Of a DNA stretch of 64,000 nucleotides, positions 92 through 62,477 are shown piece after piece. The notes beneath the pieces were generated by a model. It was given only the letters and a program-made list of their open reading frames with translations, was not told the DNA's origin and made no database searches. Position 1 is the first letter of the stretch. The number at the start of each line of letters is the position of its first letter. The stretch lies in the IMG/VR virus record IMGVR_UViG_3300005096_000103, positions 1 to 64,000 of that record; one strand, 5' to 3'. This DNA comes from a virus. The position numbers were made by a program, and so were the translations under genes.

Positions 92-133
92 CACCTGGAT
101 ATATTAGGAATATACTTGACTCTGGAGGACGTT

Positions 134-655
134 GTGCACACAGGCCAACGTCCCCAGGGTCTTTTTTTTATCTACTCCACGGAGGACCTATTGAGTCTCG
201 AAATGGAAGCTGTACGCTCTGATGACGCATATCCTACTTACATCTACCCAAGCGCTGAAACCTTGGTCAAAGCGTTCTGGGCTGCAGTACGTCAAGGCGC
301 TTTTGTGAATATGAGGTGTGGTATCAGACGACTTACAAAGGGGACCTCTTGTACTAAGTCAAGTTGTAATTCACTGAAAATGAATAATATGATTACAGAC
401 CTAGGCTCAGCTATCATCGTAGTCTCTATGGTTGCGTGGGACGAGGGACTTCTAACACACACACACAACCTAACGGAAGAACCAGGCATCACACTTTGGA
501 AGCCTATACTCGACTACGGTATGTACAAAGCTGGAGTCCCAGAGTCGTGTGTATTCCGAGTTGATATGCTATTCAGGACGCTATACGAAAGTTTCAGGAG
601 AGCTGAGAAACTAGCTACAGCCGACGCCCCAGAATGCCTAGGAGACAACACATGA
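134..655 (+). CDS. Hypothetical protein, 173 aa
   Basis: No family was recognised. The frame is open from a TTG at 116, but GTG at 134 is the better start because GGAGG sits five bases upstream (same CTGGAGGACGT context as the gene at 764). The product is a mixed alpha/beta soluble protein with no signal peptide or clear membrane segment. It begins about 40 bases after the 16-bp repeat array and its stop overlaps the next start as ATGA, so it heads a small + strand operon. Function cannot be inferred. Confidence 0.7.
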   Translation: MHTGQRPQGLFFIYSTEDLLSLEMEAVRSDDAYPTYIYPSAETLVKAFWAAVRQGAFVNMRCGIRRLTKGTSCTKSSCNSLKMNNMITDLGSAIIVVSMVAWDEGLLTHTHNLTEEPGITLWKPILDYGMYKAGVPESCVFRVDMLFRTLYESFRRAEKLATADAPECLGDNT

Positions 656-783
656 GCACCTACGTTCAGACGACCGTAAGAGAATTCGCGTATAGAACAC
701 TAGCCTTCGCAGGCCTAATCGCCGTCGCCGTAGTGCTCTCACTACTCATCGCCTGGAGGACGTATGGCAGTCCAATGGTTTGA
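652..783 (+). CDS. Single-pass membrane micro-protein, 43 aa
   Basis: A 43-residue reading frame starts in the ATGA overlap with the preceding gene, with AGGAG eight bases upstream. Residues about 17-35 (TLAFAGLIAVAVVLSLLIAW) form one clear hydrophobic segment preceded by an Arg-containing N-terminus, so an inner-membrane protein is expected. Its 3' end overlaps the next gene (start at 764). The tight coupling on both sides supports it as real. A lysis role is possible from size and topology alone, but nothing specific supports it. Confidence 0.6.
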   Translation: MSTYVQTTVREFAYRTLAFAGLIAVAVVLSLLIAWRTYGSPMV

Positions 784-964
784 AGTCGATGTGAAACTAG
801 GGGAGCTTAAGGATCAGATGGACATTGACGCACTAACCATGCTGACAACATCAGACAAAGTCTCACCCACATCACTAAGAACAGCGTTCTATGTAAAGCG
901 CGTAGGCGAGAACAGATACGAGAACAGACTATGGGCAATGTACATGATCGACACGGCCCTCTAA
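764..964 (+). CDS. Hypothetical protein, 66 aa
   Basis: A short soluble protein whose ATG is preceded by GGAGGACGT. It overlaps the end of the membrane micro-protein by 20 bases and the proposed start of the downstream gene by about 34 bases, so translation is probably coupled. No motif was recognised. Confidence 0.55.
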   Translation: MAVQWFEVDVKLGELKDQMDIDALTMLTTSDKVSPTSLRTAFYVKRVGENRYENRLWAMYMIDTAL

Positions 965-1668
965 AAGGGTATGGTCCTCTAGGAAGATATGACGACTTCG
1001 CCACAGCTAGGGAGGGTATAAAAGATACTGTGTCTTTAGCTAAAGCACACCAAAGGTACATCCACACCTGCACAGACGAGGGGAGGCTACTGTTCAAAAA
1101 TCGACGTGTAATACTCGCTGCAGGCCTTCCCGTCGCAATACAGTGTTTAAAGTCCATACAACGAAAATACGTTCGCCCGATAGGCACACCAAGGGTTGGC
1201 GCGTCAGTATTGAGAGCACATGACGTTGGTCACTTTGTAAAGTATATCGACGACGTTGCGGGCAAGTTGACCCGAGTAATGCATCGACTCCACAAAGGCG
1301 ACACAACTGGGTACATCCTAATTAGACTAGAGAAGTGGGATAGATTCACCCGAATCGAAAACGCCTTAGAGTCAATGTTACAAGACGCTACACACGCTGA
1401 AGATATAAGTAGCCGACTTAAGTTCTTAGACGACCCTCCCGCTGCAATAGGCTACTTCACTAGGGAGTACGGACGATTACATCGAGAGTCACACATAGGA
1501 CGAAACATCGTCGATATGCATAAGTTATACCCAGACGTGAGGGACCCGCCTGTCTACCCTAGCAGCCTAGAACTGGAAGACCTACGCCGCATGGTCGCAA
1601 AGGTGATAGAGTTGAAAGACGTGTTCGACTCTAAAAACTTCTTCGACTCTAAAAACTTCTTCACTTAA
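931..1668 (+). CDS. Hypothetical protein, 245 aa
   Basis: A long + strand frame rich in Arg, His and Asp, with no recognised family. The ATG at 931 lacks a convincing ribosome binding site and overlaps the previous gene, so the true start may lie downstream or depend on coupling. The C-terminus carries a perfect in-frame 18-nt duplication (1624-1641 and 1642-1659) encoding DSKNFF twice just before the stop. Repeat copies around gene ends recur in this genome. Function unknown. Confidence 0.6.
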   Translation: MGNVHDRHGPLKGYGPLGRYDDFATAREGIKDTVSLAKAHQRYIHTCTDEGRLLFKNRRVILAAGLPVAIQCLKSIQRKYVRPIGTPRVGASVLRAHDVGHFVKYIDDVAGKLTRVMHRLHKGDTTGYILIRLEKWDRFTRIENALESMLQDATHAEDISSRLKFLDDPPAAIGYFTREYGRLHRESHIGRNIVDMHKLYPDVRDPPVYPSSLELEDLRRMVAKVIELKDVFDSKNFFDSKNFFT

Positions 1669-1683
1669 ATGGTATAAGAAAGT
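1667..1683 (+). promoter_or_regulatory. Candidate phage promoter motif, copy A
   Basis: AAATGGTATAAGAAAGT begins at the stop of the preceding gene. It differs at only two positions from 40587-40603 (AATTGGTATAAGATAGT) and resembles 40892-40913. All three copies lie in + strand non-coding gaps upstream of a reading frame. It could be read by the phage RNA polymerase or be a host-type -10 region; the sequence does not decide. Confidence 0.45.
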
Positions 1684-1687
1684 GTAG

Positions 1688-1753
1688 GAGTCACTTACAC
1701 TCGTCTTATCTAAGCGTAAAACACGCTGACAATAAGACGAGTGTAAGTGACTC
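1688..1753. other. Long perfect inverted repeat (21-bp arms)
   Basis: Positions 1688-1708 and 1733-1753 are perfect reverse complements (GAGTCACTTACACTCGTCTTA and its partner). The 24-nt spacer carries a nested inverted repeat, AGCGT/ACGCT (1713-1717 and 1723-1727). No T-tract follows, so it is not a typical intrinsic terminator. It begins five bases after the promoter-like motif, so it could be a 5' RNA hairpin, an operator or a recombination/replication site. Confidence 0.85.
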
Positions 1754-1839
1754 ACAAACACAACACGACTACGGTACGTTTTATCTCCAGAATATTCTGA
1801 AGGTAAAGCAGTAGTAAAACCTAAGACCAGGAGGCTATC

Positions 1840-1875
1840 ATGAACGTCGACTCAGTTCCCGTTTGGTGGGAGTAG
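1840..1875 (+). CDS. Mini-ORF, 11 aa, possible leader peptide
   Basis: An ATG with a near-perfect AGGAGG seven bases upstream opens an 11-codon frame, MNVDSVPVWWE, ending at TAG. The next base block folds into a branched structure and a terminator. Adjacent Trp codons and a terminator directly downstream resemble an attenuator leader, although a phage has no obvious Trp operon here. It may instead be the remnant of a longer gene. The strong ribosome binding site is the main support. Confidence 0.35.
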   Translation: MNVDSVPVWWE

Positions 1876-1946
1876 AAGGGTCAGGCGAGGGTAAAGCCTT
1901 GTAGAGGGGAGTGCTATTGCATTCCCCTCACCCTTCTTTTTTTTTT
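1875..1946 (+). terminator. Branched RNA ending in a strong intrinsic terminator
   Basis: GAAGGGT at 1875-1881 pairs with ACCCTTC at 1930-1936 as a closing stem. Inside are AGGC/GCCT (1883-1886 and 1896-1899) and an 11-bp hairpin, GAGGGGAGTGC with GCATTCCCCTC (1904-1914 and 1919-1929, one G-U pair), followed by ten T residues (1937-1946). The inner hairpin and T-tract make a rho-independent terminator. The outer stem gives a possible three-way junction, which is more structure than a terminator needs. Confidence 0.8.
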
Positions 1947-1987
1947 AGCTACGCACCTAGCAGTACACACACAACCCAAGGAACAAC

Positions 1988-2365
1988 ATGGAAGAAGTAC
2001 AAGCATTCGTTTCACCCCTGGGCGCATTTCCTAGCGTCGAAGAACTTATCAGGTTCGTACTCTTTGCAGCCGGAGCAGCGTACGGAGCCACACAGATCGT
2101 AAGGACCTTACGGGATGCGGCGCTGAGCAAAAAGTACCCTAACCTCAAAGGTGTTGACTACACAAAGTGGAAGAAGTATAGCCGTTGGGCCTTGCGAGCA
2201 GTGTCACTCCTCGTAGGCATCGCCAGTGTCTGGTGGATGATGCGCAGCCAATGGGCCCTCCCTATCGGGATTTTCAGTGGCGCATTCTCCTCAACTCTGG
2301 TAAAGTACGGAAAGAGACTTCTAGCTAAAAAGGCGGGAGTTACGTTAGACGAAGAAGAAAAGTAG
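1988..2365 (+). CDS. Membrane protein, holin-like topology, 125 aa
   Basis: The ATG is preceded by AAGGAAC. Hydrophobic stretches lie at about residues 20-40, 68-88 and 90-110, with a basic, then acidic (DEEEK) C-terminus. Size and two to three transmembrane segments fit a phage holin or other inner-membrane protein, but no holin family was recognised and no endolysin gene is in the window. It starts just after the strong terminator, so it has its own promoter or relies on readthrough. Its end overlaps a roughly 22-nt tandem duplication (AAAGTAGCTGTGAG twice, about 2358-2396). Confidence 0.6.
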   Translation: MEEVQAFVSPLGAFPSVEELIRFVLFAAGAAYGATQIVRTLRDAALSKKYPNLKGVDYTKWKKYSRWALRAVSLLVGIASVWWMMRSQWALPIGIFSGAFSSTLVKYGKRLLAKKAGVTLDEEEK

Positions 2366-2389
2366 CTGTGAGCGAGAGGGAAAGTAGCT

Positions 2390-2857
2390 GTGAGAGAAGT
2401 AAAGAAAACTGGTCTCCTAAATAACAGGAAGACAAACCAGATGGTTGAAGAGCACCATAGTCAGGTATGGGTGGCACTTAATTTCCTAGCAGGACCTAGC
2501 TCTGATAGAGTTGAGATAGACGATATAGCTAAACTCTTAATCAGTATAAATACAGTGGATAAACTGATATATCCTATCAACAACCTCTGTCTAGACCACC
2601 CATCTAAAGTAGCTTGGACAGCCGATCTAGTCATAAGTTCTGTACTTAGTCTCGTATTTAAAGAGATGGCTACGTTAGATCCGCAGGTTGCGGAAACCCC
2701 CGGAACGTATATACGTGTAGTCAGCCCTCAGTTCCACAACGTGTTCTCTGTGCACACTGACATAGCGTGGTTAGTTGATAGCTATTCAAGCTTTGAACTA
2801 AAAGCTAAGTGCCAGAATATACTTAATCGTGTGTCTGACGGAGAGTTGCTAGACTGA
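2390..2857 (+). CDS. Hypothetical protein, 155 aa
   Basis: Starts at GTG 2390 with GAGAGGG upstream; that start lies in the second copy of the repeat that ends the previous gene. It is a soluble, largely helical protein with no recognised motif. The stop (2855-2857) lies in the first of three 19-bp tandem copies. Function unknown. Confidence 0.6.
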   Translation: MREVKKTGLLNNRKTNQMVEEHHSQVWVALNFLAGPSSDRVEIDDIAKLLISINTVDKLIYPINNLCLDHPSKVAWTADLVISSVLSLVFKEMATLDPQVAETPGTYIRVVSPQFHNVFSVHTDIAWLVDSYSSFELKAKCQNILNRVSDGELLD

Positions 2858-2893
2858 CGGAGAGTTGCTAGACTGACGGAGAGTTGCTAGACT
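2835..2893 (+). repeat. Three 19-bp tandem repeats across a stop codon
   Basis: CTGACGGAGAGTTGCTAGA is repeated perfectly at 2835-2853, 2854-2872 and 2873-2891. The upstream gene stops at TGA in the second copy, and a further in-frame TAG follows. It is one of a family of stop-codon duplications seen in this window. Confidence 0.95.
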
Positions 2894-2914
2894 AAACACC
2901 TATAGGAGTAACAA

Positions 2915-3358
2915 ATGCCAATCGATTCAGAGTACGAGATTCTGTGTGACGCACAGAGCTTCAAAAGTATCTACATGGACTTCTTCAGACTTGTAGGATA
3001 TAGCCCAGGAGATCTCTCAGAAATCGAGAGAATCTTCAATGTAGCAGAGGAGAAGCTAGGAGTGAGTTCGAGAGAACTTAGACTGATGAAAAGGATCTCA
3101 ACGCCTAAAGGTCGTGTTCAGATAGGGGTGATCCAACGAGGAAGACTCGTACCGTTAACCCGGTACCGCGCAAAGACTACAACACCTGGCGCGCCAACAA
3201 CTAAGACAGCGCATAGCTACGGGATCGAAGGCGCAGACCTTAAGGATATAGGATTGTTGTCTAGAGGTAATAAGCCTACCTCTCGGGACACCGGAGAGTA
3301 CTACGGGTCCTTCTCAAACAAGCAGCTTAAAGAGAAGCGCGACGCCGCCGCTAAATAG
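2915..3358 (+). CDS. Hypothetical protein, 147 aa
   Basis: ATG with AGGAG nine bases upstream. The N-terminal half is helical and acidic; the C-terminal half is basic and rich in Thr, Gly and Lys, ending KEKRDAAAK. No family was recognised. It is the last gene of the left + strand group and overlaps the convergent - strand gene by 45 bases. Confidence 0.65.
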   Translation: MPIDSEYEILCDAQSFKSIYMDFFRLVGYSPGDLSEIERIFNVAEEKLGVSSRELRLMKRISTPKGRVQIGVIQRGRLVPLTRYRAKTTTPGAPTTKTAHSYGIEGADLKDIGLLSRGNKPTSRDTGEYYGSFSNKQLKEKRDAAAK

Positions 3359-3682
3359 TACGGAAACGATACCACTCCCAATCAGGATCTTCGTCTTAAT
3401 CCTCGTGAACTCAACAACAAGATCCCTTAGGTCTGAGGTTACTATAGCTGTATCTTTGCTTAGTCTAGTTAGATTTCTCTCTAATGACATCTCTTTCTTC
3501 TCTAGGGCGATGTCGAGGCGTACAAGCTTTTCCCTGAAAGACTTGCTGTTGAGACTGTCACGCTCGCTTAGTGTAGCAAGAGCAACCTTAACATCTTGAA
3601 TGAGACGCTTTAATTCACGCTCATCGCTTTTGATGTCTCTCAACGTATCGAGAATATGTCTCTTGTTCTCCGCCCAAGTCAT
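3314..3682 (-). CDS. Coiled-coil protein with C-terminal membrane anchor, 122 aa
   Basis: Residues about 5-95 are a charged heptad-like helix rich in Lys, Glu, Arg and Leu. Residues about 98-120 (ILIGSGIVSVLFSGGVALLF) form one hydrophobic anchor. This layout matches small phage lysis-associated membrane proteins such as the XhlA type, but sequence identity to them is not evident by eye. Start ATG has GGAAGG upstream. It overlaps the start of the upstream membrane gene, so it is co-transcribed at the very end of the virion module. Confidence 0.65.
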   Translation of the reverse strand: MTWAENKRHILDTLRDIKSDERELKRLIQDVKVALATLSERDSLNSKSFREKLVRLDIALEKKEMSLERNLTRLSKDTAIVTSDLRDLVVEFTRIKTKILIGSGIVSVLFSGGVALLFKLLV

Positions 3683-4367
3683 GGCCGTACCTTCCGTAAT
3701 CTACTTCTATGTAAATAAACCCAGTGAACCACATCAGATACTCAGCTACTCTGAGAACGCTAGCAACAGTGCACTCTGAATAACTTCCAGAGTGTGGGTA
3801 GAAGGCCAGAAATAAATGTGTACCAAGTCCAAAGGCAATATACCACTCAAACCCTTTAGCCGTAAATACTTTTGCTGACTTAGTGTACAGTGTCCCTATG
3901 TATATAGTAGCCCACAACAGCCCTAGATACAAGTCTAGCGGTCTAGTAACGTAAGGTATATAAGACACAAGACTATCCAGCGCAGGACCCGCTGAACTTA
4001 GTAAGAGACCTGTGACTAGAATAACACCAACAAAATAAGGCCACACAGCCTTTGGACCACCAGTCCTAGACCATACAATTCCCAACAGTAGGAATACAGA
4101 GAACATAAGTCTATTAACGAATGTGAACCAAGGGTACCACGACGTAACAACGTCTGTAGTAGCGGGGAGTGACATAAGAGCGAGCATCACAGCACTACAA
4201 GCCGCGAGCATCCCAAATGCAGTAGACCAGAACAACGTTAAAACGTGTAACGACCTAGATACGCATACACCCTCCGGAGTAAACGTACGACAATACCTAC
4301 GGTACGATAGATCTGCACATCCTAGACACAATAAAGCGCTAATACCCTCAAGGTATAGTGTATTCAT
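3621..4367 (-). CDS. Polytopic membrane protein, 248 aa
   Basis: Six or seven hydrophobic segments span the protein (roughly residues 5-22, 40-65, 78-100, 108-128, 145-162, 172-190 and 207-222), so it is an integral inner-membrane protein. The ATG has AAGAGG upstream. It overlaps the coiled-coil/anchor gene by 62 bases, a layout that suggests coupled expression. A role at the host membrane late in infection (lysis or exclusion) is only an inference. Confidence 0.65.
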   Translation of the reverse strand: MNTLYLEGISALLCLGCADLSYRRYCRTFTPEGVCVSRSLHVLTLFWSTAFGMLAACSAVMLALMSLPATTDVVTSWYPWFTFVNRLMFSVFLLLGIVWSRTGGPKAVWPYFVGVILVTGLLLSSAGPALDSLVSYIPYVTRPLDLYLGLLWATIYIGTLYTKSAKVFTAKGFEWYIAFGLGTHLFLAFYPHSGSYSECTVASVLRVAEYLMWFTGFIYIEVDYGRYGHDLGGEQETYSRYVERHQKR

Positions 4368-4405
4368 CGATTTAACCTCTTAGCAGTCCTAGCACTCTAG
4401 CTTTT

Positions 4406-4840
4406 CTAGCCAGCATCGCTAAACCAAGCCTTAACAGATATACCCGCTGTAGCCTTGTAACTTAAGAAGTAGTTGAGGGTGGTATCAGAGATCTCTAGGA
4501 GACCACTATAACCTGCAGGTAGAATAATCGTGATGTTGTCAGCGATAGTAGGATCAGCAACAACAGCAGCATTAGGGTCGAGTCGGATGAACGCAGGACC
4601 CGCGCTCCCAATCACAACTCGTATAACACTCATGGCTCCTGCAGTGATCTGCCAGTTACCACCTGTAGAGTCTATGGTGACAGCTTTTGAGACACCACCA
4701 GGACTAAAGGCCTGGTGCATACTTAACCGACCATTACGAGCTGAAATTAGACTCGCCTTACCTGACGACTTCTCAGTACCCGCGATAGGCATAGCCCAGA
4801 GAACCTTCTCCCCAACTTTCCTTACGAAATTACGTAACAT
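4406..4840 (-). CDS. Probable small virion protein, 144 aa
   Basis: A beta-rich protein with a basic N-terminus (LRNFVRKVGEKVL) followed by a Gly/Ala/Thr-rich region that reads like a small beta-sandwich. It follows the baseplate genes, so a tail or baseplate accessory or receptor-binding role is possible. Start ATG has AAGGTGATC upstream. No family was recognised. Confidence 0.55.
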   Translation of the reverse strand: MLRNFVRKVGEKVLWAMPIAGTEKSSGKASLISARNGRLSMHQAFSPGGVSKAVTIDSTGGNWQITAGAMSVIRVVIGSAGPAFIRLDPNAAVVADPTIADNITIILPAGYSGLLEISDTTLNYFLSYKATAGISVKAWFSDAG

Positions 4841-4874: not shown

Positions 4875-4926
4875 GTACTAGTTGTTAAACATCACATAGC
4901 GTACTAGTTGTTAAACATCACATAGC
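4875..4926. repeat. Two 26-bp tandem repeats across a stop codon
   Basis: GTACTAGTTGTTAAACATCACATAGC occurs as two perfect copies (4875-4900 and 4901-4926), with a partial third before them. The - strand gene ending at 4904 has its TAG inside the repeat and meets a second in-frame stop (TGA, 4892-4894) in the next copy. Confidence 0.9.
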
Positions 4927-17127: not shown

Positions 17128-17225
17128 TTAATACCTGTCATTACAGTGCTAGTACCTGTCATTACAGTGCTAGTACCTGTCATTACAGTGCTAGTACCTG
17201 TCATTACAGTGCTAGTACCTGTCAC
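17128..17225. repeat. 21-bp tandem repeat giving five in-frame stops
   Basis: Four perfect copies of TACCTGTCATTACAGTGCTAG (17132-17152, 17153-17173, 17174-17194, 17195-17215) are followed by a partial copy to 17225. Read on the - strand from the gene ending at 17212, each copy is exactly seven codons and supplies an in-frame TAG (17212, 17191, 17170, 17149). An in-frame TAA lies at 17128-17130. Confidence 0.95.
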
Positions 17226-19888: not shown

Positions 19889-20806
19889 TTAGGGGAAGGT
19901 CACGCGAATGACTCCGCCAACGTTGACGAAGGTCACGCCGAGTACACTGTAGGCGTAGAACTCAATCATGTCAGCTTCCTGCTTGATATGCACAGTTGCA
20001 TCTTCAAGGAGAAAGTACTTACCGAGGTACTCTTCTGGTGCGAAGATCCACATTTCATTCGCAGGGAGAATATCAGACTTGATAGTTGTGATAGCGTCAT
20101 AACCCCAGAGCTTAGTCTGGCTCTCAACGCCTTCGTCGTACAAGCGCTCAGCAACACCATCACCTACATCAACTGCATCGAAGAGGAGGAGGTCAACGAA
20201 AAGCTCCTTGGTGAGGAGGATTTTGCCTATGTTGAGTTTCTTAGAGAGGAGAGCCTTGAGACCTGCAACGAGTCCAGCCTTTGACAACGCCGCGGTACCA
20301 GCAGCGATACTCTGCGCGGGGAACGTAGTCACGATATCAAGGATGGTATCGTAGAAGTAGGTGTCTTCGGTGTCTGCCATGTCGAAGACAGAGTTGTCTT
20401 GCAGGATCTTGACGATATCCGACTTGTAGGTCATCAACTCCCACTTGTTCTTCCGCCACTTGTCTGAGGTAATTTTACCAAAGGGGCAGGAGGTTCGTGG
20501 CATGCGGATATACTTGCGGTCCGAGGTCGAAGCGAAGGGTACGAAAGTCGCGTACGACTCAGTCTCTTCTTCGACGATAATCCGTGGTGTGTCGTTGTCT
20601 ACACTCGGATCAAGCATCGAAGCATCCACATTCTGCGGAGTGAAGATCTTTCGTGCGAAGCTGTGTTGGCGGACATAGTCACGGACATAAGAGGTTACTT
20701 GTGCAGACGCCTCCTTAACATTGTCCTCGACTTTCCGCACAAAGTTAGTGTTAATTTCTTTGGCACTCACTTGTGTGGTGACCGTGCGATATGCTGGTGA
20801 CGCCAT
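19889..20806 (-). CDS. Probable major capsid protein, 305 aa
   Basis: Length, position after the prohead protease and scaffold-like genes, and an own terminator behind it fit the major capsid protein. An N-terminal helix (EINTNFVRKVEDNVKEASAQVTSYVRDYVRQHSF) precedes a beta-rich region with RIIVEEETESYATFVPF. A C-terminal strand set includes ANEMWIFAPEEYLGKYFLLEDAT, a pattern like the HK97-fold P-domain. A VKEAS motif near residue 33 resembles the K-x-A motifs of neighbouring proteins. Strong ribosome binding site (AGAGGG). A motif with ATAAGATA lies upstream at about 20830. Confidence 0.6.
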   Translation of the reverse strand: MASPAYRTVTTQVSAKEINTNFVRKVEDNVKEASAQVTSYVRDYVRQHSFARKIFTPQNVDASMLDPSVDNDTPRIIVEEETESYATFVPFASTSDRKYIRMPRTSCPFGKITSDKWRKNKWELMTYKSDIVKILQDNSVFDMADTEDTYFYDTILDIVTTFPAQSIAAGTAALSKAGLVAGLKALLSKKLNIGKILLTKELFVDLLLFDAVDVGDGVAERLYDEGVESQTKLWGYDAITTIKSDILPANEMWIFAPEEYLGKYFLLEDATVHIKQEADMIEFYAYSVLGVTFVNVGGVIRVTFP

Positions 20807-33569: not shown

Positions 33570-35438
33570 CTAGTACTTTCCGTCAGTGCCACTACCAAAC
33601 TCTGCGCCATAGACGTAAGCGGGTATTGGCTCAAGTCCATGGATAGTATCGGACAGACCTGCTGCTGCAGCTTCGGTCAGACTTTTGCGTAGGTAACGAT
33701 GCTGCTGCTTCGCTAGCCACTTAGGACTGAGTAGAGGACTACGTGTCAACGGCTTTATTATCGGACGTACTCTAAGTTTACCCGTGTAGGTCTTGACTTC
33801 CGTAAGCCCTCTAGACTTTAGTCCTTCGATTATTGGACGCGTGAGTTCTGTGCCTGCGTTGAATTCATGTGTGTTTGCTCCGAGTATTGATCCCCGCAGG
33901 TCAGGGCTTAGCTTGACTTTAGCAGTCCGGGTTTCGTTTGTAAACTCCTTGTGCAGTGGTCCGTACGGTACGATGTCACCTGTAGTGTTATCCCCATATG
34001 GATCAGCCGTAACTCTGACGTAGTTAAGCTGTGACTTAGCTAGAAGCTCCGCGTGTCGCTTGTCTAAGTAGCTACCCGAGTTTTGATAGATAGACTGGAT
34101 CCCCTTAGCGATGTGAACTCTACCTGCGCCTAGTCCTTTGTAGGGTACGACGTCGTTAGGGAGAGGGACTCCTGTTGAAAGTAGGTCACCAGCATAGACA
34201 CTGTCTCCCGCTTTACGGATAGGGTCTATACCCGGTGGAACATACACTGTTCGTTGCTTACCCGAGTAGTTAACCGCTATGTTGAACCCGCCCTGTGGAG
34301 CAGAGTCTACTCTCTCAATTTTACCATTGTCAGAGGCTACTAGCGCTTTCTGTGTGAACGACTTTGGAAACTCTAAGAAGGCCTGGATACCTTTTAGACC
34401 ACGTAGACTGACGTCTTTCTTTGTTGCGATACGTACACCGTGCTTAGCGTTGAGGGCGAATTGCGTAAGGGGTTCACTAAGCGCTTGAGCACTGCGGACT
34501 CCGAGGTTAGTACCTATTGATGGGAACTGCCCACGCTCGTCGTACCCATAACATTTTTGGCACACGCCTTCCGGTAACTCACAAGTTAGTACACTGCGGA
34601 CAAGTAGCTCTCTTATGCCCTTACGCTTTAGGAGGGCGAGGTCCTGTGGCGTAATGACTTCGTTACGTCGTAAACCAGCTTTAGGTACATCCTTTGCAAC
34701 AAGTCTATCCACAGTAGAAGGTTCGTCTGACGACTCCATGACGCCATTAAATGTTCTGCAGTCGTCCTTAGCTACGACCTGTGCAGACATATTAGCAACC
34801 ATGATCTTAGCAAAAGCGCCAGGGTCTGCAACTGACTGCTTCGTTTGGACTGCAGCCCTCCTAGCTTCTGCGTTTGCTACCCAGACTTCCTCAGGTCGTA
34901 GACCCTCAGCATATGACCTAGCGATTAACCACGGAGTTACAGAGCCGTCACGCCGAGTAACAGCACCTGGAGAAGCTACCGTCTTAGACAGTTGTGCAAT
35001 AGAACCTCGACCACCAGAGTTGGCCATCATAGCCATATCAGATTTGTGAGACTTAACTGTGCCGAGTAGTGCATCCTGTGTATTAATTATGATGTTCTGG
35101 CGCTTAGTAACGTCACCTGGTAAAGTCGTTGAGAGAGGTCTCAGCTTCTTCATAGCCTTTCGAACAATAGGATCCCGCCTTGCGTAGTCAGGTGTGATGT
35201 CGTCAAGCCCTACAGAGATCCCTAGATAGGTCGCAGCTTCGTCCCCGATACTTTTTATCTTCTGTACGATACGACCATATGAACTAGGGTAGGTTTTCCC
35301 TATAAGGCTCAGCTTATCCTGGAGAACTCTCTTCGTGATAGGTTTATCAAACTTCGGGATCCCTTTGGGGATCTGCTCGTTAAATAACAGAGTCCCAAAA
35401 CTCATAGCCTTGTTATTCTTATTTTTCTTTGGTGGCAT
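33570..35438 (-). CDS. RNA polymerase beta-prime, C-terminal half, 622 aa
   Basis: Matches bacterial beta-prime from just before the bridge helix to the C-terminus. Residues about 68-80 (AATYLGISVGLDD) match ATRAGISIGIDD, residues 138-152 (MANSGGRGSIAQLSK) match the bridge helix, and residues 176-215 form a trigger-loop region ending in NMSAQVVAKDDC. A zinc site is conserved: C227, C286, C293, C296 (VLTCELPEGVCQKCYG). The trigger-loop catalytic His (H936 in E. coli) aligns with Ala190. It has no active-site Asp triad; that is supplied by the gene at 35972. The stop lies in a 22-nt direct repeat. Confidence 0.9.
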   Translation of the reverse strand: MPPKKNKNNKAMSFGTLLFNEQIPKGIPKFDKPITKRVLQDKLSLIGKTYPSSYGRIVQKIKSIGDEAATYLGISVGLDDITPDYARRDPIVRKAMKKLRPLSTTLPGDVTKRQNIIINTQDALLGTVKSHKSDMAMMANSGGRGSIAQLSKTVASPGAVTRRDGSVTPWLIARSYAEGLRPEEVWVANAEARRAAVQTKQSVADPGAFAKIMVANMSAQVVAKDDCRTFNGVMESSDEPSTVDRLVAKDVPKAGLRRNEVITPQDLALLKRKGIRELLVRSVLTCELPEGVCQKCYGYDERGQFPSIGTNLGVRSAQALSEPLTQFALNAKHGVRIATKKDVSLRGLKGIQAFLEFPKSFTQKALVASDNGKIERVDSAPQGGFNIAVNYSGKQRTVYVPPGIDPIRKAGDSVYAGDLLSTGVPLPNDVVPYKGLGAGRVHIAKGIQSIYQNSGSYLDKRHAELLAKSQLNYVRVTADPYGDNTTGDIVPYGPLHKEFTNETRTAKVKLSPDLRGSILGANTHEFNAGTELTRPIIEGLKSRGLTEVKTYTGKLRVRPIIKPLTRSPLLSPKWLAKQQHRYLRKSLTEAAAAGLSDTIHGLEPIPAYVYGAEFGSGTDGKY

Positions 35439-35441
35439 GTG

Positions 35442-35972
35442 CTAGCCCCTGTACCCTTTGAACATAGTGTTAACGTCAGTGGATACGCCTAGAGGTACTG
35501 ATAGCGCTGATACGCCTAGCGCTCCACCCCTAACATACTTATTCTTAGCGAGTACTTTAGCTGCACCCCCTATCAGGCTACTGGCTGGTTTGCTAGCGGC
35601 TGCACCGGTGACAGCTTTACCTACACCCTTGCCTACTGTGCTAGCTACTGCCTTACCTACACCCTTACTTGCTAGCCTCCCTAAGAGCCTGCCCCCTAGA
35701 CTAAGTAGTCCCGCCATCTTAGCCCCCTGCCCTCCAAAGCCTCCGGAACCTACGTTCGAGGTGTCGATGTTATATGACTTAGCCCAGTTGACAGTCTGGG
35801 TTCCGCGGTGGCGCTTACGTCTAGCTGGTCCTGACCTAAAGCCGCGGGGGATAGCACTCTTGTCGAGCATGGACTGCTCTAACTCAGAGACGATATTAGC
35901 CTGCTTGTAGACATTGATGCCTGCTAAGCGACTAACTATAACGTTATGCAATTGAGTGTGTGCACTGCGCAT
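35442..35972 (-). CDS. Gly/Ala-rich protein between RNA polymerase genes, 176 aa
   Basis: The N-terminal third is helical with K-x-A motifs (VYKQANIV, LDKSAIPR, GAKMAGLL) and a basic patch (PARRKRHRG). Residues about 85-160 are a Gly/Ala/Lys-rich repeat of GVGKAV type (GKGVGKAVTGAAASK), resembling amphipathic or membrane-interacting helices. Its start touches the end of the beta/beta-prime fusion and it lies three bases from the beta-prime C-terminal gene, so it is translated with both. It may be an accessory factor or a small virion protein. No family was recognised. Confidence 0.6.
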   Translation of the reverse strand: MRSAHTQLHNVIVSRLAGINVYKQANIVSELEQSMLDKSAIPRGFRSGPARRKRHRGTQTVNWAKSYNIDTSNVGSGGFGGQGAKMAGLLSLGGRLLGRLASKGVGKAVASTVGKGVGKAVTGAAASKPASSLIGGAAKVLAKNKYVRGGALGVSALSVPLGVSTDVNTMFKGYRG

Positions 35973-38900
35973 TACACGCCTCCTTTATTCCTAAGTGTGA
36001 TAGGCGTGTTAAGTGTTATCTCGTTGCGGTTGTACGCGGCTTTAGCTGCTTTAAGATCCTGGAAGATGCGCGCCTTACCTTTAGCCTGGCTCCCGGAGAA
36101 CGCCCCATACACTGCCTCGTGTTGTGGTTTAACGAGGAGGCTAGACTTCTTACCGTCTGAGAATATGAGATTAGACAAGGTCATACGCTTAGCTTCCTCT
36201 ACAGCCTTAGGCATTGAGGGGGTGTAGACCTGCATGGCATCGCCATCATAGTCTGCGTTCAAACCTTCTTCTGCAAAAGGGTTGAGCCGGATCGTCTTAC
36301 CTGGCACGGGTACAGCGTAAGCACCGATTAAGCCGAAGCGGTGTAGAGTCGGTGCTCGATTGATTAACACAGGCCTCTCTTTCAATTCGGCATTCAACTC
36401 GATCCTAGCCTCAGGTGTACGGTTATCCACCATGCCAATAGCCGCAACAGGCGCAGTACCCTTGCGGACTAGACGACGAGTTGTAAAGGGCTTGTACATT
36501 GACCAGAGCATGTCCTCTGGGATACCTACCTGGTCCAAACCAAGTGAGGGGTCAGGAGCTATGGTACCACGACCAGATAGTTGCTGTCTCTTCTTGATGA
36601 GCTTCTCGTGGAAGAACCCATACTTGGGGCTTGTCTCTCCCACGATCTGAGTCATGAAACCTTTGACACCACGTCCTAGAGTCTTAGCGTTGACAGGCGG
36701 GTTTGTTCCGAACACTGCACCAACAGCGTCGTAGAGTTGTTTGTTACTCTGTCCTGGTTCCTCCAAGGCTTTGAGTTCCTTAGGGGTGTTCTTGATAGAC
36801 TCGTTAACAAGTATAAGATCCTTATACAAGTAGTTAGGGTCAGAGATTAAAGCAGACCCGTCACTGGTTGTCACAACCGTACGCATGATAGGCGGGATAA
36901 CTGGGACCTTAGAGATGACGTACGCGTCTCCAGGTGACAAGTTCTGCTTCTTAAGAGAACCAATATACTTAAGCTGCCTCACCCACCCGTCAACTTGTGT
37001 TGCTGCGCTAGGTGATCGTATATTGATCTTCTGGGATATCTTAGCCTTTAGGGATCGCTCAAGTCCTGGGAGGTTTAGAGAGTTGAGCTTCGTCTTAACT
37101 GCAGCGCCTCCAGCTTCAGTGCTATACTTTGTGAACTCTATACCAGACATCCCTAGAAGCTCACGTGCAGGCTTTGCAAACACTGGATTCACTATAGGCT
37201 CAGCTAGTTTTATCTTAGACCACTTAGTTCCTGAGGGTCCTCCTGTAATACTGAAGTCGAATAGACCACCAGTCTCAGGGACGTACTTGGCTCCTCCGTT
37301 CTTAGAAGACTTGACCTTCATGATCCCAGCATTCTCTACTTCACGCTGGGCTAACGCATCAGTATCCTTATCTGTCATAGGCAACACACTAAAGATGTCA
37401 CCTTGCTTCTTAACGTTGATACCTCCGCCTTGCAGCATAGTCGTGTACTTGTTGAAGGCGTGAGACGTTTTGATGTCAGGGGTCGGGAGACCCAGCTGTA
37501 CCCTTCGCCAATACTCTTCGTTCTTATCTGACTTTACAGTGGAGCCCTCTTTGAGGATGGCGCGAGCGTCATGGGCTACAAGAGCCAAGAAGTCCATTGC
37601 ACCAAAGCTCTTTGCGCCCTCAGGGCCTCCACGTGTTGGCTGTCCATTAACATCAGTGGCGCCCACGCCTCGGGCTGAGAAGTTCGTCTCCGTGCTCTTG
37701 AACAGCTTGAGCATGTACTGCTGCCCTACCATTATATTAGGGATCTTCTTTCCGGTGATAGGGTCAGTGACGGTTTCCTTATCTTTGATCCCATGTTTCT
37801 TAAGCAGATCCTTTGCGAACTTGACACGATTGACGTTGTCGTAGTGAGGGAGCTGTATGACTTTACCTGTCTTCACTGCGACCTTTGAGATAGCTGTCTC
37901 GATAATCTGAGCAGGGTTGATGCGAGATACAACACCCGCGCTTGTGAGGAGCAGGTCGAGAGGCTTACCATCTTCACCCTGTGGCATCTCGTTATCTGGT
38001 ATAACTAAAGACACGACACCTTTGTTACCATATCGCCCAGCTAACTTATCCCCAACGCCCATAGGCTCAAGGGTTAACACTGTAACTTTGATAGAGCGAG
38101 GTGTGACCCTCACATCTTTAACAGTACCTTCGTGTTTATGTTCCCAGAGTATAGAAGCATCCCTGTAGGGTCTGACAAGACCTCGACTGAGGTTACCGAG
38201 AATCTCGTCCTCTGTTGACCTTACAACTTTCTTCACTGCTACAATGAGAAGTTCACCGGGCTTAATCTTTGAGCCGACTTTAGGTGCGCCACTCCTATCA
38301 ATGTTGTTGTACTCAGCAGCAGTAAACTTACCTCCGAAGTAAGTACGGTGTTTGTCTACCCCAGGTTCTATATTAGCAGTGATACTCAGCGAGTGCCTAT
38401 ACATGTGCTCGCTGGTCAGCTTATTCTTAGATGCACCCTCTGAGATAATTAGAGCATCATTAGAGTTGTAGCCCTTCCACGCCATGTAGGCTACCTTAAG
38501 ATTTGTCCCGCCCGCGTATCGACCGTCCTTAGTGAAGTTAGAATCAGCGAGGAAAGCACCCTTCTTAACCTTGTCACCCTTTGCAACGTTGACGCTATGG
38601 TCAAGCCTTGTCTTAGATGCGAAGGGGAAGTTCCTCGCATAAGGGACCTTGAACACCGAACCGTTGTTATCCTTTATATGTATCGTGTCTGTCTTCGTAT
38701 CTATTTTGCTGATAGTACCAGCGACAGGAGACTTAGGGAGGTGGATAGTCCCGAAGACATCCTCCATTGACTCCCCTGTCTTAGTGTTCCCCTGCACCTG
38801 AACCCAAGGTACTTCCCTGTTAACTAGCGGCAGCGATTGAGTCACTTGCTTCGCGCCCATGATAGCGCGATTCCCTTGCATTCCATTGATCCCCGGTACG

Positions 38901-40513
38901 ATATTCGTAGAAGGTGAATACATCGCTGCAGTACTCGGGACTTGATAGTCTACCTGGTTGCGAGAGACATTCTTAATCGTATCCCCAAACAAGACAGGCA
39001 CTTTGTTCTTTGTGATATCTGTCGTAGGGAAGGCAACGTTCTTCTTTGTAAAGTCTAAGACGTTGACGTACTCAAGCTTCTTCGTCTTTACGTTCTTTAG
39101 CAGTGAGAACATATCCCCTTCGTCGTTCACCGCCCCGTACGCTGTAACTCGAAGGTCTACACCTACACCCCCTGACTCAGGGGTACGGACAGGATCTAAG
39201 ATACCCAGGTGAGTTCCGTGCTGGTCCCGTGTTGAGTCTGGGACAGATCTGAGAGACGAGATACCCCCCTCCCCTAGAGATGTGACCTTGACCGCAGAGT
39301 CTAGGATCTCGATAGGGTTAATCTGTGACGGATTACTGGAGAGTGAGCTTGTAGTAATCAGTGTCTTAAGCGGACGACTGAAAGGGGTCGGAGGCATGAT
39401 ACTTTTAATTGTAGGATCTGCTGTACCATTGAGCTTGAACTTAACCTTAGACTGAAAAGCTCTACCCGCGTTCTTACTGATCCTCTCCCCAAAGAAAGTG
39501 TCTACAGTGTGTAGTGTCTTGAACTCTAGAGAGTCACGATCATCCTCAGGCTCAACTTTGTTATAAACCCTTAAGATCTTCTTGCTTGCAATCAAAAGAG
39601 CCTTGACGCTAACCCTGTCAAACTCCTGACCTAACGTAGTCTTTGTTACACGCTTGTGTAATACAGTGTTCTCGTACGCCTTAGCGATCTCACGTGCCAT
39701 ATCCTTGAGCGTAGGACTTGCCGTTCTATCTGACTCTTTAACGATCTTAAGATAGAGCTTACGTAGATTAGCCTGGGTATTCTTATTCGCCTTGCGATTA
39801 ACATCAACTAGCTTAGCACCCCACGCTTTCTTTACGTCAGCGGGTGATACCCCTAGCGTCTCCAATACAGGGTATAAAGGTATCTTAGTTGAGTCGTACT
39901 GTAAGTAGAACACGCCAGTCTCTGGAACCATAAAGATTCTAAAGTTACGCCCACGACCCAGGTTGAAGTTAGCTTCCAGGTCACCGTTGTTGCGTGTACG
40001 AGTGTAGACGCCAGGCTTAATACGCAGCTGATTTGACAGCGAGTACTCTGTGCCCTTTACCGTGAAGGTATGCCGAGGTGTCATCCAAGGAAGCTGCGCT
40101 ACAGTCTTCTTCTGCTTATCAACAACCTTTCCAGTCTTATTGTTGCGTATGATGAGCGTAGCACTCACCCGCTCGTTAAGAGACTTACCTACAAGGATAG
40201 CTTCTTTCTGTTCCTTTAACGTAAAGTCTTTCTTCTCTACGCTGATATCCTTCACTTCGAGGGAGAACTTCGTACCCTCCACAGGCATCGTCTTTGCGAG
40301 CGCTGCAACAGTCTGCTGCCTTATCCGCTCCCGCCTCTCTTCTGCAGAGGAGAGTACCCGATGCAACCCTTTGAGGTACCCCGTCTTCAACGTGTACGGC
40401 GTATCATCTCCCTCAGGATCCACCCCCGCAAGCTCTGCTGCCGAGGTAGGTTCCAGAGTATCCTCTTGCGAGTCAGCGCCATCTATCGCGAACCCACTTT
40501 CTTTATTAGCCAT
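35972..40513 (-). CDS. RNA polymerase beta fused to beta-prime N-terminal half, 1513 aa
   Basis: One chain carries beta and the first half of beta-prime. Beta signatures: FTVKGTEYSLSNQLRIKPGVY (fork region), GMQGNRAIMG, NSNDALIISEG, and GDKLAGRYGNKGVVSLV with EDGKPLDLLLTSAGVVSRIN. Beta-prime signatures near the C-terminus: WSKIKLAEPIVNPVF, KVPVIPPIMRTVV, RPVLINRAPTLHRFG and the catalytic NADYDGDAM (36233-36259), with all three Asp residues. No beta-prime N-terminal zinc ribbon Cys cluster is visible. ATG 40513 is preferred over ATG 40585 because GGAGGT lies seven bases upstream. Beta-prime continues in the gene at 33570. Confidence 0.93.
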   Translation of the reverse strand: MANKESGFAIDGADSQEDTLEPTSAAELAGVDPEGDDTPYTLKTGYLKGLHRVLSSAEERRERIRQQTVAALAKTMPVEGTKFSLEVKDISVEKKDFTLKEQKEAILVGKSLNERVSATLIIRNNKTGKVVDKQKKTVAQLPWMTPRHTFTVKGTEYSLSNQLRIKPGVYTRTRNNGDLEANFNLGRGRNFRIFMVPETGVFYLQYDSTKIPLYPVLETLGVSPADVKKAWGAKLVDVNRKANKNTQANLRKLYLKIVKESDRTASPTLKDMAREIAKAYENTVLHKRVTKTTLGQEFDRVSVKALLIASKKILRVYNKVEPEDDRDSLEFKTLHTVDTFFGERISKNAGRAFQSKVKFKLNGTADPTIKSIMPPTPFSRPLKTLITTSSLSSNPSQINPIEILDSAVKVTSLGEGGISSLRSVPDSTRDQHGTHLGILDPVRTPESGGVGVDLRVTAYGAVNDEGDMFSLLKNVKTKKLEYVNVLDFTKKNVAFPTTDITKNKVPVLFGDTIKNVSRNQVDYQVPSTAAMYSPSTNIVPGINGMQGNRAIMGAKQVTQSLPLVNREVPWVQVQGNTKTGESMEDVFGTIHLPKSPVAGTISKIDTKTDTIHIKDNNGSVFKVPYARNFPFASKTRLDHSVNVAKGDKVKKGAFLADSNFTKDGRYAGGTNLKVAYMAWKGYNSNDALIISEGASKNKLTSEHMYRHSLSITANIEPGVDKHRTYFGGKFTAAEYNNIDRSGAPKVGSKIKPGELLIVAVKKVVRSTEDEILGNLSRGLVRPYRDASILWEHKHEGTVKDVRVTPRSIKVTVLTLEPMGVGDKLAGRYGNKGVVSLVIPDNEMPQGEDGKPLDLLLTSAGVVSRINPAQIIETAISKVAVKTGKVIQLPHYDNVNRVKFAKDLLKKHGIKDKETVTDPITGKKIPNIMVGQQYMLKLFKSTETNFSARGVGATDVNGQPTRGGPEGAKSFGAMDFLALVAHDARAILKEGSTVKSDKNEEYWRRVQLGLPTPDIKTSHAFNKYTTMLQGGGINVKKQGDIFSVLPMTDKDTDALAQREVENAGIMKVKSSKNGGAKYVPETGGLFDFSITGGPSGTKWSKIKLAEPIVNPVFAKPARELLGMSGIEFTKYSTEAGGAAVKTKLNSLNLPGLERSLKAKISQKINIRSPSAATQVDGWVRQLKYIGSLKKQNLSPGDAYVISKVPVIPPIMRTVVTTSDGSALISDPNYLYKDLILVNESIKNTPKELKALEEPGQSNKQLYDAVGAVFGTNPPVNAKTLGRGVKGFMTQIVGETSPKYGFFHEKLIKKRQQLSGRGTIAPDPSLGLDQVGIPEDMLWSMYKPFTTRRLVRKGTAPVAAIGMVDNRTPEARIELNAELKERPVLINRAPTLHRFGLIGAYAVPVPGKTIRLNPFAEEGLNADYDGDAMQVYTPSMPKAVEEAKRMTLSNLIFSDGKKSSLLVKPQHEAVYGAFSGSQAKGKARIFQDLKAAKAAYNRNEITLNTPITLRNKGGV

Positions 40514-40585
40514 AGCGTACACCTCCCCTCGGGAGACTACTCTAGTTCCGTCCGGTCGTAAATGCCCTGCATAAACGTGCCTCAT

Positions 40586-40606
40586 AAATTGGTATAAGAT
40601 AGTAAC
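40586..40606 (+). promoter_or_regulatory. Candidate phage promoter motif, copy B
   Basis: AAATTGGTATAAGATAGTAAC lies about 75 bases before the micro-ORF at 40682. It is shared, with few changes, with 1667-1683 and 40892-40913. It also overlaps the region upstream of the RNA polymerase fusion on the other strand, so it could serve either direction. Confidence 0.5.
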
Positions 40607-40681
40607 TAAGATTCGTAGATCTAATCACTAAGCACGCAATAAGGCGTACTAGGTGAAGAGGTCGAAACTTTGGGAGTACGC

Positions 40682-40804
40682 ATGCGTACCAGAAACATCA
40701 TCGCGATCCTTATGATCGCTGCCGCACTAGTAGCGGGTGAGAGAAGTTCTCTCCCTGTTCGGTGCGGCGTTCCTACCACTTCGTCCATCGGGTCGAAGTG
40801 GTAG
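40682..40804 (+). CDS. Signal-peptide-like micro-protein, 40 aa
   Basis: MRTRN followed by IIAILMIAAALVAG reads as a signal peptide or single membrane anchor, then 20 polar residues with one Cys, ending at TAG. GGGAG lies about seven bases upstream of ATG and a promoter-like motif lies 75 bases upstream. Its 3' end is inside a 14-bp perfect hairpin, so the coding sequence and an RNA structure overlap. The G+C and short length leave doubt. Confidence 0.4.
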   Translation: MRTRNIIAILMIAAALVAGERSSLPVRCGVPTTSSIGSKW

Positions 40805-40834
40805 GAAGAGAGAACCCAAATGGATTCTCTTTTG
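40770..40834 (+). terminator. Two hairpins ending the micro-ORF transcript
   Basis: TTCCTACCACTTCG (40770-40783) pairs perfectly with CGAAGTGGTAGGAA (40794-40807) over a 10-nt loop. A second hairpin, AGAGAACCC (40809-40817) with GGATTCTCT (40822-40830, one mismatch), is followed by TTTG. The second looks like a rho-independent terminator; the first is stronger and may be a regulatory or stability element. Confidence 0.65.
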
Positions 40835-40891
40835 TTTAGTAAAACATACACCTCTTAACCTCACCCTCTAAGACCAAAAACAACCCCTATT

Positions 40892-61147: not shown

Positions 61148-62440
61148 ATGAGCAACGAAGAAACCCAAAGCTGCTTCTGGGAAACTCAATTTGGTCTGCC
61201 CGCGCCTATGAGCATGTCACAGATATCCAAAGTACTAGATCTTACACTTAACGCGGGTGAAGGTCTTATCCCCTACCTTGTGAGTGAAACCAGCCAAGGG
61301 AAAACGACGCTAGTCAAACAGTGGGCTAGCGACAATGGCTACGTGATTCATACATACAACATGGTCTCCGCTGAGGCATCCGATCTCCAGGGAATTCCGT
61401 TCCCGTCGAAAGACCGGAAGACATTTAACTACCTGACACAAGGCGCAATACCTATCAACGATGATAAGCGTAAAGTCCTGCTATTCCTCGACGAGGTCAA
61501 CAGGGCTCCAAACGAGAACAAGAACATCGTGTTCCAGATCCTGAACAGACATCTAGGAGAGAACACTCTAGGAGTGAACGTCAAGATGGTTCTAGCCGGC
61601 AATCCGTCAGGACGCTACAATGTGAACAATATCACAGATGAGCCTGCGTTTCTACGTCGGTGCGTTATCCTCCCCTGTGCACTTAACTTGTACGAGGCCT
61701 TGGAGTACATGAAGGAGCACGAATGGCATCCTACAGTTATTGAGTACGTCAGCTCCAACACTGATCAACTACAAGCAGAGTTTGGTAAGGTTAAGACCGG
61801 TCACTGCTTCAATACTGCAGCGGGCTGGAACAGTATATCTGACCTGCTCTACAGGGCCGAGGATTCTGGAGTAGGAGACACTGCGAAAGGTAAGACCGTC
61901 GACACTGCGAAGACCGTCGACCTCGCAAACCTGAGCTTGAACGATGATCGTATACTATTCTCGATCATCTCAGGTATCATTGGGCGTGTAGCAGCTCAGG
62001 CATTCTGGGTATTTGTGACACGACCTAGCGAAGCATTGACAGCTAAGGACCTGTACGAGGGCATCGGAGTTGTAGGTAACGATACCGGAGACAAGTTCGC
62101 TAAGATCGTAGAAGAGAAGAAAGGGGCTACAGTAACAAACCTCCTCAAGGCTCTCGCCCTATATGTCCTCACTGGGGTGACCTGCAGCATGGAAGACTCT
62201 GTAAAGTTCCATATTCGACTGTTCTTGGTGCTAACAGAGACACACTGGAGGACGTACATCGAGCATCTCAAGCACACCCTCTACATCTCAGGCAATACAA
62301 TCACCGTCAATGGATCCTCATTCAACACGTGGCTGTATAATCTTGAGAGTCAGATCCAGGAAGATCCAGAAGTACACAAGCTGTCAATCAGGCGGCTAAG
62401 AGTGTCGATGAAGCTTACTCTTGAGGAGGGGAAGGCCTAG
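61148..62440 (+). CDS. MoxR-type AAA+ ATPase, 430 aa
   Basis: Walker A ETSQGKTTL (about 47-55), Walker B LLFLDEVNRAP (D115/E116) and the sensor pattern VLAGNPSGRYNV...LRRCVILP (about 145-180) identify a MoxR-like AAA+ protein, a remodeller of protein complexes. The C-terminus is helical. MoxR genes usually neighbour a VWA-domain partner; none is evident here, and the next genes are unknown. It starts 30 bases from the divergent terminase gene. Its stop is the first of three in-frame TAGs in a 15-nt repeat. Confidence 0.85.
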   Translation: MSNEETQSCFWETQFGLPAPMSMSQISKVLDLTLNAGEGLIPYLVSETSQGKTTLVKQWASDNGYVIHTYNMVSAEASDLQGIPFPSKDRKTFNYLTQGAIPINDDKRKVLLFLDEVNRAPNENKNIVFQILNRHLGENTLGVNVKMVLAGNPSGRYNVNNITDEPAFLRRCVILPCALNLYEALEYMKEHEWHPTVIEYVSSNTDQLQAEFGKVKTGHCFNTAAGWNSISDLLYRAEDSGVGDTAKGKTVDTAKTVDLANLSLNDDRILFSIISGIIGRVAAQAFWVFVTRPSEALTAKDLYEGIGVVGNDTGDKFAKIVEEKKGATVTNLLKALALYVLTGVTCSMEDSVKFHIRLFLVLTETHWRTYIEHLKHTLYISGNTITVNGSSFNTWLYNLESQIQEDPEVHKLSIRRLRVSMKLTLEEGKA

Positions 62441-62477
62441 TCAAGCGAAATCTAGTCAAGCGAAATCTAGTCAAGCG
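62437..62477. repeat. 15-nt tandem repeat holding stops for both converging genes
   Basis: CTAGTCAAGCGAAAT is present at 62437-62451 and 62452-62466, with a partial copy at 62467-62477. On the + strand each copy gives an in-frame TAG after the MoxR gene (62438-62440 first). On the - strand the gene ending at 62467 reads CTT GAC TAG in each copy. Both convergent genes thus have three in-frame TAG stops from the same 15-nt unit. Confidence 0.9.

Follow-up and report, generated by a model that had tools for sequence, protein, structure and literature searches.

Multi-subunit RNAP-encoding Caudovirales (mReC; Weinheimer & Aylward 2020, PMC7481178) possess one of the deepest-branching multisubunit RNA polymerases known. 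Virions of Salmonella phage Arash (OQ632216), a distant relative of the phage analysed here, contain RNAP subunits together with a sigma factor (PMC10585845). No promoter is mentioned in either of these papers, terminators are likewise mentioned nowhere in the mReC paper, and a full-text literature search for the nonamer TGGTATAAG, the core of the promoter class described in the present analysis, retrieved no phage promoter among the matches listed. The promoters of the jumbo phages phiKZ and AR9 (PMC7598289) resemble this class in having an AT-rich conserved motif near -10 and in being served by a phage multisubunit RNAP; they differ from it in sequence, and the mReC clade differs in having recognisable sigma-70-type factors.

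The phage and its relatives

The phage analysed here is represented by an IMG/VR virus record of 138,359 bp, bases 1-64000 of which constitute the window, that is, the whole 64,000-nt stretch of DNA under study. On its minus strand, the window carries an RNAP gene encoding β and the N-terminal part of β' (35972-40585; Pfam PF00562, PF00623 and PF04998), followed by the C-terminal part of β' (33570-35438, identified through Pfam matches). The phage also encodes a terminase large subunit (TerL), a family-A DNA polymerase and, outside the window, a sigma-70-type factor (80235-81341 of the record). Among named phages, its closest relatives are Salmonella phage Arash and the Vibrio phages D69, D148 and D181, with an RNAP identity of ~35%, and 78 IMG/VR contigs share the phage RNAP at 31-53% identity. 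When bacterial genomes were searched for a closer phage, a single relative was found, with an RNAP identity of 29%. TerL and a 305-aa gene (19889-20806) have matches in the related genome G003, in Arash and in D69, the 305-aa gene matching the major capsid protein locus of Arash. The alignable, phage-encoded β and β', along with terminase and capsid genes related to those of RNAP-encoding relatives, place the phage in the mReC lineage by similarity to RNAP-encoding phage contigs; like the published members (PMC7481178), it is of metagenomic origin.

The region of interest is a 280-bp block at 1667-1946, on the other side of the structural genes from the RNAP locus. Neither the DNA of this block nor the genes flanking it (116-4840) have detectable homologues in phages, IMG/VR or related records; this includes Arash, whose RNAP gene is 35% identical and whose sigma factor is homologous. 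Rfam returned no match at the gathering score within the window, and a single tRNA-Leu in the rest of the genome.

A promoter class of the mReC phages

A preliminary description of this DNA had claimed a promoter-like motif within the block. Such a motif is indeed present on the plus strand at 1670-1678, where the core TGGTATAAG has the form of an extended -10 element and continues as AAAGTGTA, as do the Arash sites; exact copies recur across the genome and in relatives. In the phage's own genome, nine copies lie on the plus strand and none on the minus strand. According to ORFs called with a simple greedy script, which makes the intergenic counts approximate, 7-8 of the nine are intergenic, in a genome of which intergenic DNA represents ~6%; the copy at 58690 is the single one that lies neither between genes nor directly ahead of one. 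The strand bias is equally complete in Arash (18 copies versus 0), where all copies share the strand that carries the small non-structural genes and typically precede the ATG of a small gene by ~40 nt. There, GGTATAAG is the most over-represented intergenic 8-mer, 16 of its 31 copies being intergenic.

The motif also recurs beside the polymerase gene itself. In 22 of the 72 RNAP-bearing contigs, TGGTATAAG is found no more than ~100 bp from the start of the RNAP gene and points away from it, where chance would give roughly 0.1; as the 72 contigs do not represent independent lineages, the figure counts contigs and not evolutionary events. Many other contigs possess variants with one or two mismatches (TGGTACAAG, TGGTAAAAG and GGGTACAAG) at the same place, which, having been chosen by best match, are weaker evidence than the 22 exact sites. 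The copy at 40590 is the equivalent site in the phage's own genome. Judged by its strand bias and intergenic placement, in this genome and in relatives alike, TGGTATAAG is a genuine promoter element, lineage-wide in mReC.

The final G of the motif is near-invariant (18 versus 2 in Arash, 9 versus 1 in the phage's own genome), and the bases downstream show a G-T-G-T-A tendency. The extended -10 element of host sigma-70 (TGnTATAAT) ends in T, and nearly all sites depart from it at this last base; no TTGACA/TATAAT pair was reported at the block. Because of this final G, and since the phage encodes both an RNAP and a sigma factor, we infer that TGGTATAAG is recognised by the phage holoenzyme. From -10 geometry, transcription from the block promoter is predicted to start at 1684-1686 on the plus strand, 6-8 nt past TATAAG. 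In Arash, this class lies ahead of the non-structural, nucleotide-metabolism strand and not of late lysis genes; a k-mer search for a late-promoter motif upstream of leftward genes yielded no clear one. TGGTATAAG is a strong candidate for a consensus common to cultured and uncultured members, and it makes it possible to test directly if the phage's own DNA is recognised by the virion polymerase and its sigma factor. This promoter family, together with the micropeptide family described below, constitutes the new content of the analysis.

A further copy of TGGTATAAG, at 114188-114298 of the record, is followed by a terminator-like hairpin (+28 to +75, -22.5 kcal/mol), a T6 run and a gene at +110, and constitutes a second promoter-terminator-gene leader. 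In contig L103, a terminator-like hairpin likewise lies between promoter and gene.

Anatomy of the block at 1667-1946

The whole 280-nt block folds at -116.1 kcal/mol, compared with -68.0 +/- 5.2 kcal/mol for shuffled sequences (z = -9.2). It contains a very strong 5' leader hairpin on the plus strand (1688-1753, -44 kcal/mol), with a perfect stem (1688-1709/1732-1753), arms 22 nt apart and a nested 5-bp hairpin (1713-1717/1723-1727). A perfect inverted repeat with a nested hairpin had already been placed here, with a length of 21 bp; the placement stands, whereas the stem proves to be 22 bp long. In 60 windows generated by Markov resampling, the longest perfect repeat was usually 10-12 bp and never exceeded 16 bp, so that the repeat is far above chance; the runner-up inverted repeats of the window are imperfect. 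The leader hairpin begins 2-4 nt past the predicted transcript start. In bacteria, a hairpin so near the RNA 5' end is known to guard the transcript against 5'-end-dependent decay, and a stem of 22 bp also has approximately the length required by RNase III. A second, small hairpin lies at about 1780-1807 (plus strand).

No repeat of the 22-bp hairpin arm was found elsewhere in the phage's own genome. The 23 IMG/VR matches to 15 nt of the arm were considered as homologues and rejected as chance, all of them lacking both the second arm and the promoter. A leader hairpin as a general trait of the promoter class was likewise not supported, the mean z being -1.0 versus -0.5 in control stretches (p = 0.19).

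Downstream of the hairpins, a Shine-Dalgarno (SD) sequence AGGAGG (1829-1834, plus strand) precedes by 5 nt the ATG of an 11-codon ORF, MNVDSVPVWWE* (1840-1875), with tandem Trp codons (TGG) at 1864-1869. The mini-ORF and its near-ideal ribosome binding site are thus as the preliminary description had them; when the block is Markov-shuffled, AGGAGG-N4-9-ATG turns up in 0.5% of cases (P = 0.005). The possible three-way junction ending in T10 that had been proposed for the end of the block was also recovered: an intrinsic terminator (1874-1946, plus strand, -39.6 kcal/mol) in which an 8-bp stem (1874-1881/1930-1937) closes round two hairpins (1885-1902 and 1904-1929) and the GC-rich structure, with its stem end at 1937, runs into the U-tract encoded by 1937-1946. 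This T10 is one of four runs of at least nine T in the genome, both strands counted. The terminator stem (1874-1881) shares its first two bases with the stop codon of the mini-ORF (1873-1875).

Micro-ORF units beside the RNA polymerase gene

The RNAP-adjacent promoters of relatives offer the closest parallel to the block. At 29 of 39 RNAP-adjacent loci bearing the motif, the promoter is followed by an SD-led ORF no longer than 25 codons, often with an intrinsic terminator within ~200 nt, and the next gene beyond is convergent. Because of this convergent gene, such units are self-contained and not attenuators. The encoded micropeptides fall into groups such as MVITFVRILLGF / MVIVFLRILIGF, MRIEYIELFYI / MSIIYIELVFI and MDIRNLGLV / MVIRNLGLF, and the differences between micro-ORFs are mostly at the third codon position (3, 1 and 9 at successive positions for L071 versus L101); judged by this pattern, the micropeptides are most likely translated.

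Conserved SD-led micro-ORFs of the form M[VLI]I..., 9-20 codons long and behind a TGGTATAAG-type promoter, were observed at loci L061-L129 as well as in the window at 40590-40838. Lying beside the phage RNAP, they are likely to be unannotated micropeptides of many mReC contigs, and such a conserved micropeptide would be a further product that gene callers have likely missed. In the phage's own genome, this second unit with the anatomy of the block (40590-40838, plus strand) comprises a TGGTATAAG divergent from the RNAP gene, a 40-codon ORF and, at its end, a hairpin with a short T-run, AGAGAACCCAAATGGATTCTCTTTT, which was read by eye and went uncalled in the terminator census.

The block shares with these units a promoter, an SD sequence, an ORF of at most 25 codons and a terminator within a few hundred nt. 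It is, however, not divergent from the RNAP gene, and MNVDSVPVWWE is not a hydrophobic M[VLI]I... peptide; conversely, the RNAP-adjacent units lack the long hairpin of the block.

Possible roles of the block

We favour, with a probability of roughly 0.55, the reading of the block as a short, self-contained mReC phage transcription unit, the product being a ~260-nt RNA or its micropeptide. What the DNA itself provides for this reading is the promoter family, the hairpin, the SD-led ORF, the terminator and the parallel units with ORFs conserved at the protein level. The phage promoter TGGTATAAG would start a ~260-nt RNA at about 1684-1686, the first nucleotides of which would fold into the 22-bp hairpin and shield the RNA 5' end; the strong ribosome-binding site would then drive the 11-codon ORF, and the branched intrinsic terminator would end the RNA at T10 (1946). 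Either the RNA or the micropeptide would be the product, as in the promoter/micro-ORF/terminator units beside the RNAP gene. Stand-alone units are normal in this lineage, since RNAP-adjacent copies of the promoter usually drive a promoter-SD-micropeptide-terminator array with only a convergent gene beyond. Where the preliminary description had proposed either a stable small RNA or a device for attenuation, and not just a gap between two genes, leaving the two unseparated, the idea of one short transcript bounded by promoter, hairpin and terminator is supported at the level of sequence, and the analogy with relatives favours a stand-alone unit over an attenuator. Against the stand-alone reading, MNVDSVPVWWE is unlike the RNAP-adjacent peptides, co-directional genes follow the block, unlike at the RNAP locus, no homologue of the block was found and strong leader hairpins are not general in the promoter class.

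A wider proposal, which we advance tentatively and at somewhat less than even odds, is that mReC phages carry lineage-wide autonomous micro-transcripts, each equipped with a phage-polymerase promoter and a terminator of its own and encoding a translated micropeptide of ~9-20 residues, the block being a diverged, dual-function member with a 22-bp 5' hairpin. If so, the block would yield both a protected small RNA and a micropeptide. Should it make a stable RNA, it would provide a compact model for small transcripts produced by the phage's own polymerase.

The principal alternatives to a stand-alone unit concern the co-directional gene that follows the block (1988-2365, plus strand). It encodes a 125-aa product with two or three hydrophobic segments, predicted to be a small membrane protein and holin-like by size and topology only; neither this gene nor its neighbours matched a protein family. 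Only 41 nt separate it from T10, and as no promoter is visible in this gap, the gene needs read-through from somewhere, which is the main argument for any reading of the block as a leader. The block might then be a translation-coupled attenuator of operon 1988-3358, similar to that of pyrBI. The branched terminator would form in the absence of translation, whereas a ribosome that stalls at the tandem Trp codons, or finishes translation at 1873-1875, would cover 1874-1881; with this arm covered, the closing stem would be lost and transcription would read through into the membrane-protein gene. The geometry fits, the end of the leader ORF overlapping the outer 5' arm of the terminator as in pyrBI-type attenuators, and when 1845-1880 (the Trp-codon footprint) is masked, the outer stem disappears and the hairpin that remains is separated from the U-tract by 7-8 nt. 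In E. coli, a terminator that lies less than ~27 nt from a stop codon is repressed by ribosomes (PMC4824070), and at the phage's own 114188 promoter, too, a terminator-like hairpin precedes the gene. However, stop codons overlapping terminators are common, a ribosome at the stop codon would still permit a weaker fallback stem (GGGT/ACCC), Trp codons are unexplained for a phage gene, and in Arash it is the non-structural, nucleotide-metabolism strand, not late lysis genes, that follows promoters of this class. The 11-codon ORF is also shorter than the pyrBI-type leader, and no U-rich pause tract was seen. We consider a pyrBI-type switch at the block possible but rather unlikely.

No competing antiterminator pairing was found for such a switch. 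As a classic antiterminator, the best single upstream partner for a terminator arm reaches -12.3 kcal/mol and is locked in the 22-bp hairpin, so this candidate was rejected. The tandem TGG codons would provide the regulatory codons of a trp-type leader peptide, and may be there by chance; mutually exclusive folds and a terminator more than 20 nt past the leader ORF are not found, the stop codon overlapping the stem. Since the terminator arms have no competitor among the upstream segments, a trp-type switch is unsupported.

In phage lambda, the late leader is arranged as pR'-6S RNA-tR'-S, i.e., a promoter, a short leader, a terminator and a small membrane-protein gene. The block has the same layout, with a structured leader at the very 5' end, and leader hairpins also occur at 114188 and in contigs L072 and L103. 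A further possibility is that the promoter is followed by a leader RNA acting in cis to render the phage polymerase resistant to termination, as with lambda Q at pR'-tR' or HK022 put, giving a short terminated RNA early and read-through into the downstream genes later. Yet no Q-like antiterminator protein or put-like element was identified, leader hairpins are not significantly enriched across the promoter class, and the lysis role of gene 1988 comes from topology only. The block promoter, moreover, looks early or middle, and its leader, unlike that of lambda, encodes an SD-led ORF. We regard this explanation as improbable.

Ordinary punctuation, with the promoter belonging to the next operon, the terminator to the previous one, and the hairpin and ORF being functionless, is more doubtful still. 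Genes on both sides run rightwards, and T8-T10 terminators lie between genes elsewhere (162 and 107615), but a terminator downstream of the promoter would stop the promoter's own transcript, and the perfect 22-bp stem and the optimal SD-ORF are each improbable by chance. That the inverted repeat acts at the DNA level, as an operator, a cruciform or a replication site, is very improbable despite its perfection, its closeness to the promoter and its position 1.7 kb from the record's end, as it starts almost exactly at the predicted RNA 5' end, is oriented as the promoter and terminator are, and has an arm unique in the genome and no counterpart hairpin in IMG/VR. Nor does the GC skew turn at the block as it would at an origin.

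Other features of the record

Another strong terminator lies just inside the left end of the record (window 121-171), with a stem GACTCTGG.../...CCAGGGTC followed by T8. The same 16-bp tandem repeat, GGCTCTCTAGAGTTTA, is present at both record ends (1-91 and 138263-138359); because of this shared repeat, the assembly probably breaks within the 16-bp array, and the map may be circular or repeat-ended. A region of ~2.2 kb at 126406-128736 of the record is nearly ORF-free, partly strongly C-rich on the plus strand and without an RNA family match.

In several contigs, among them L010, L011, L087, L089 and L103, the RNAP match extends over 4.8-6.9 kb rather than 4.3 kb, which suggests that the phage RNAP gene contains insertions such as introns, inteins or homing genes. 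Short perfect tandem repeats with units of 15-26 bp recur at the 3' ends of genes, often across the stop codon; they are located at 1-91, 1624-1662, 2835-2893, 4875-4926, 17132-17224 and 62437-62477 in the window, and at 109.2 kb, 124.9 kb and 133.1 kb in the full record.
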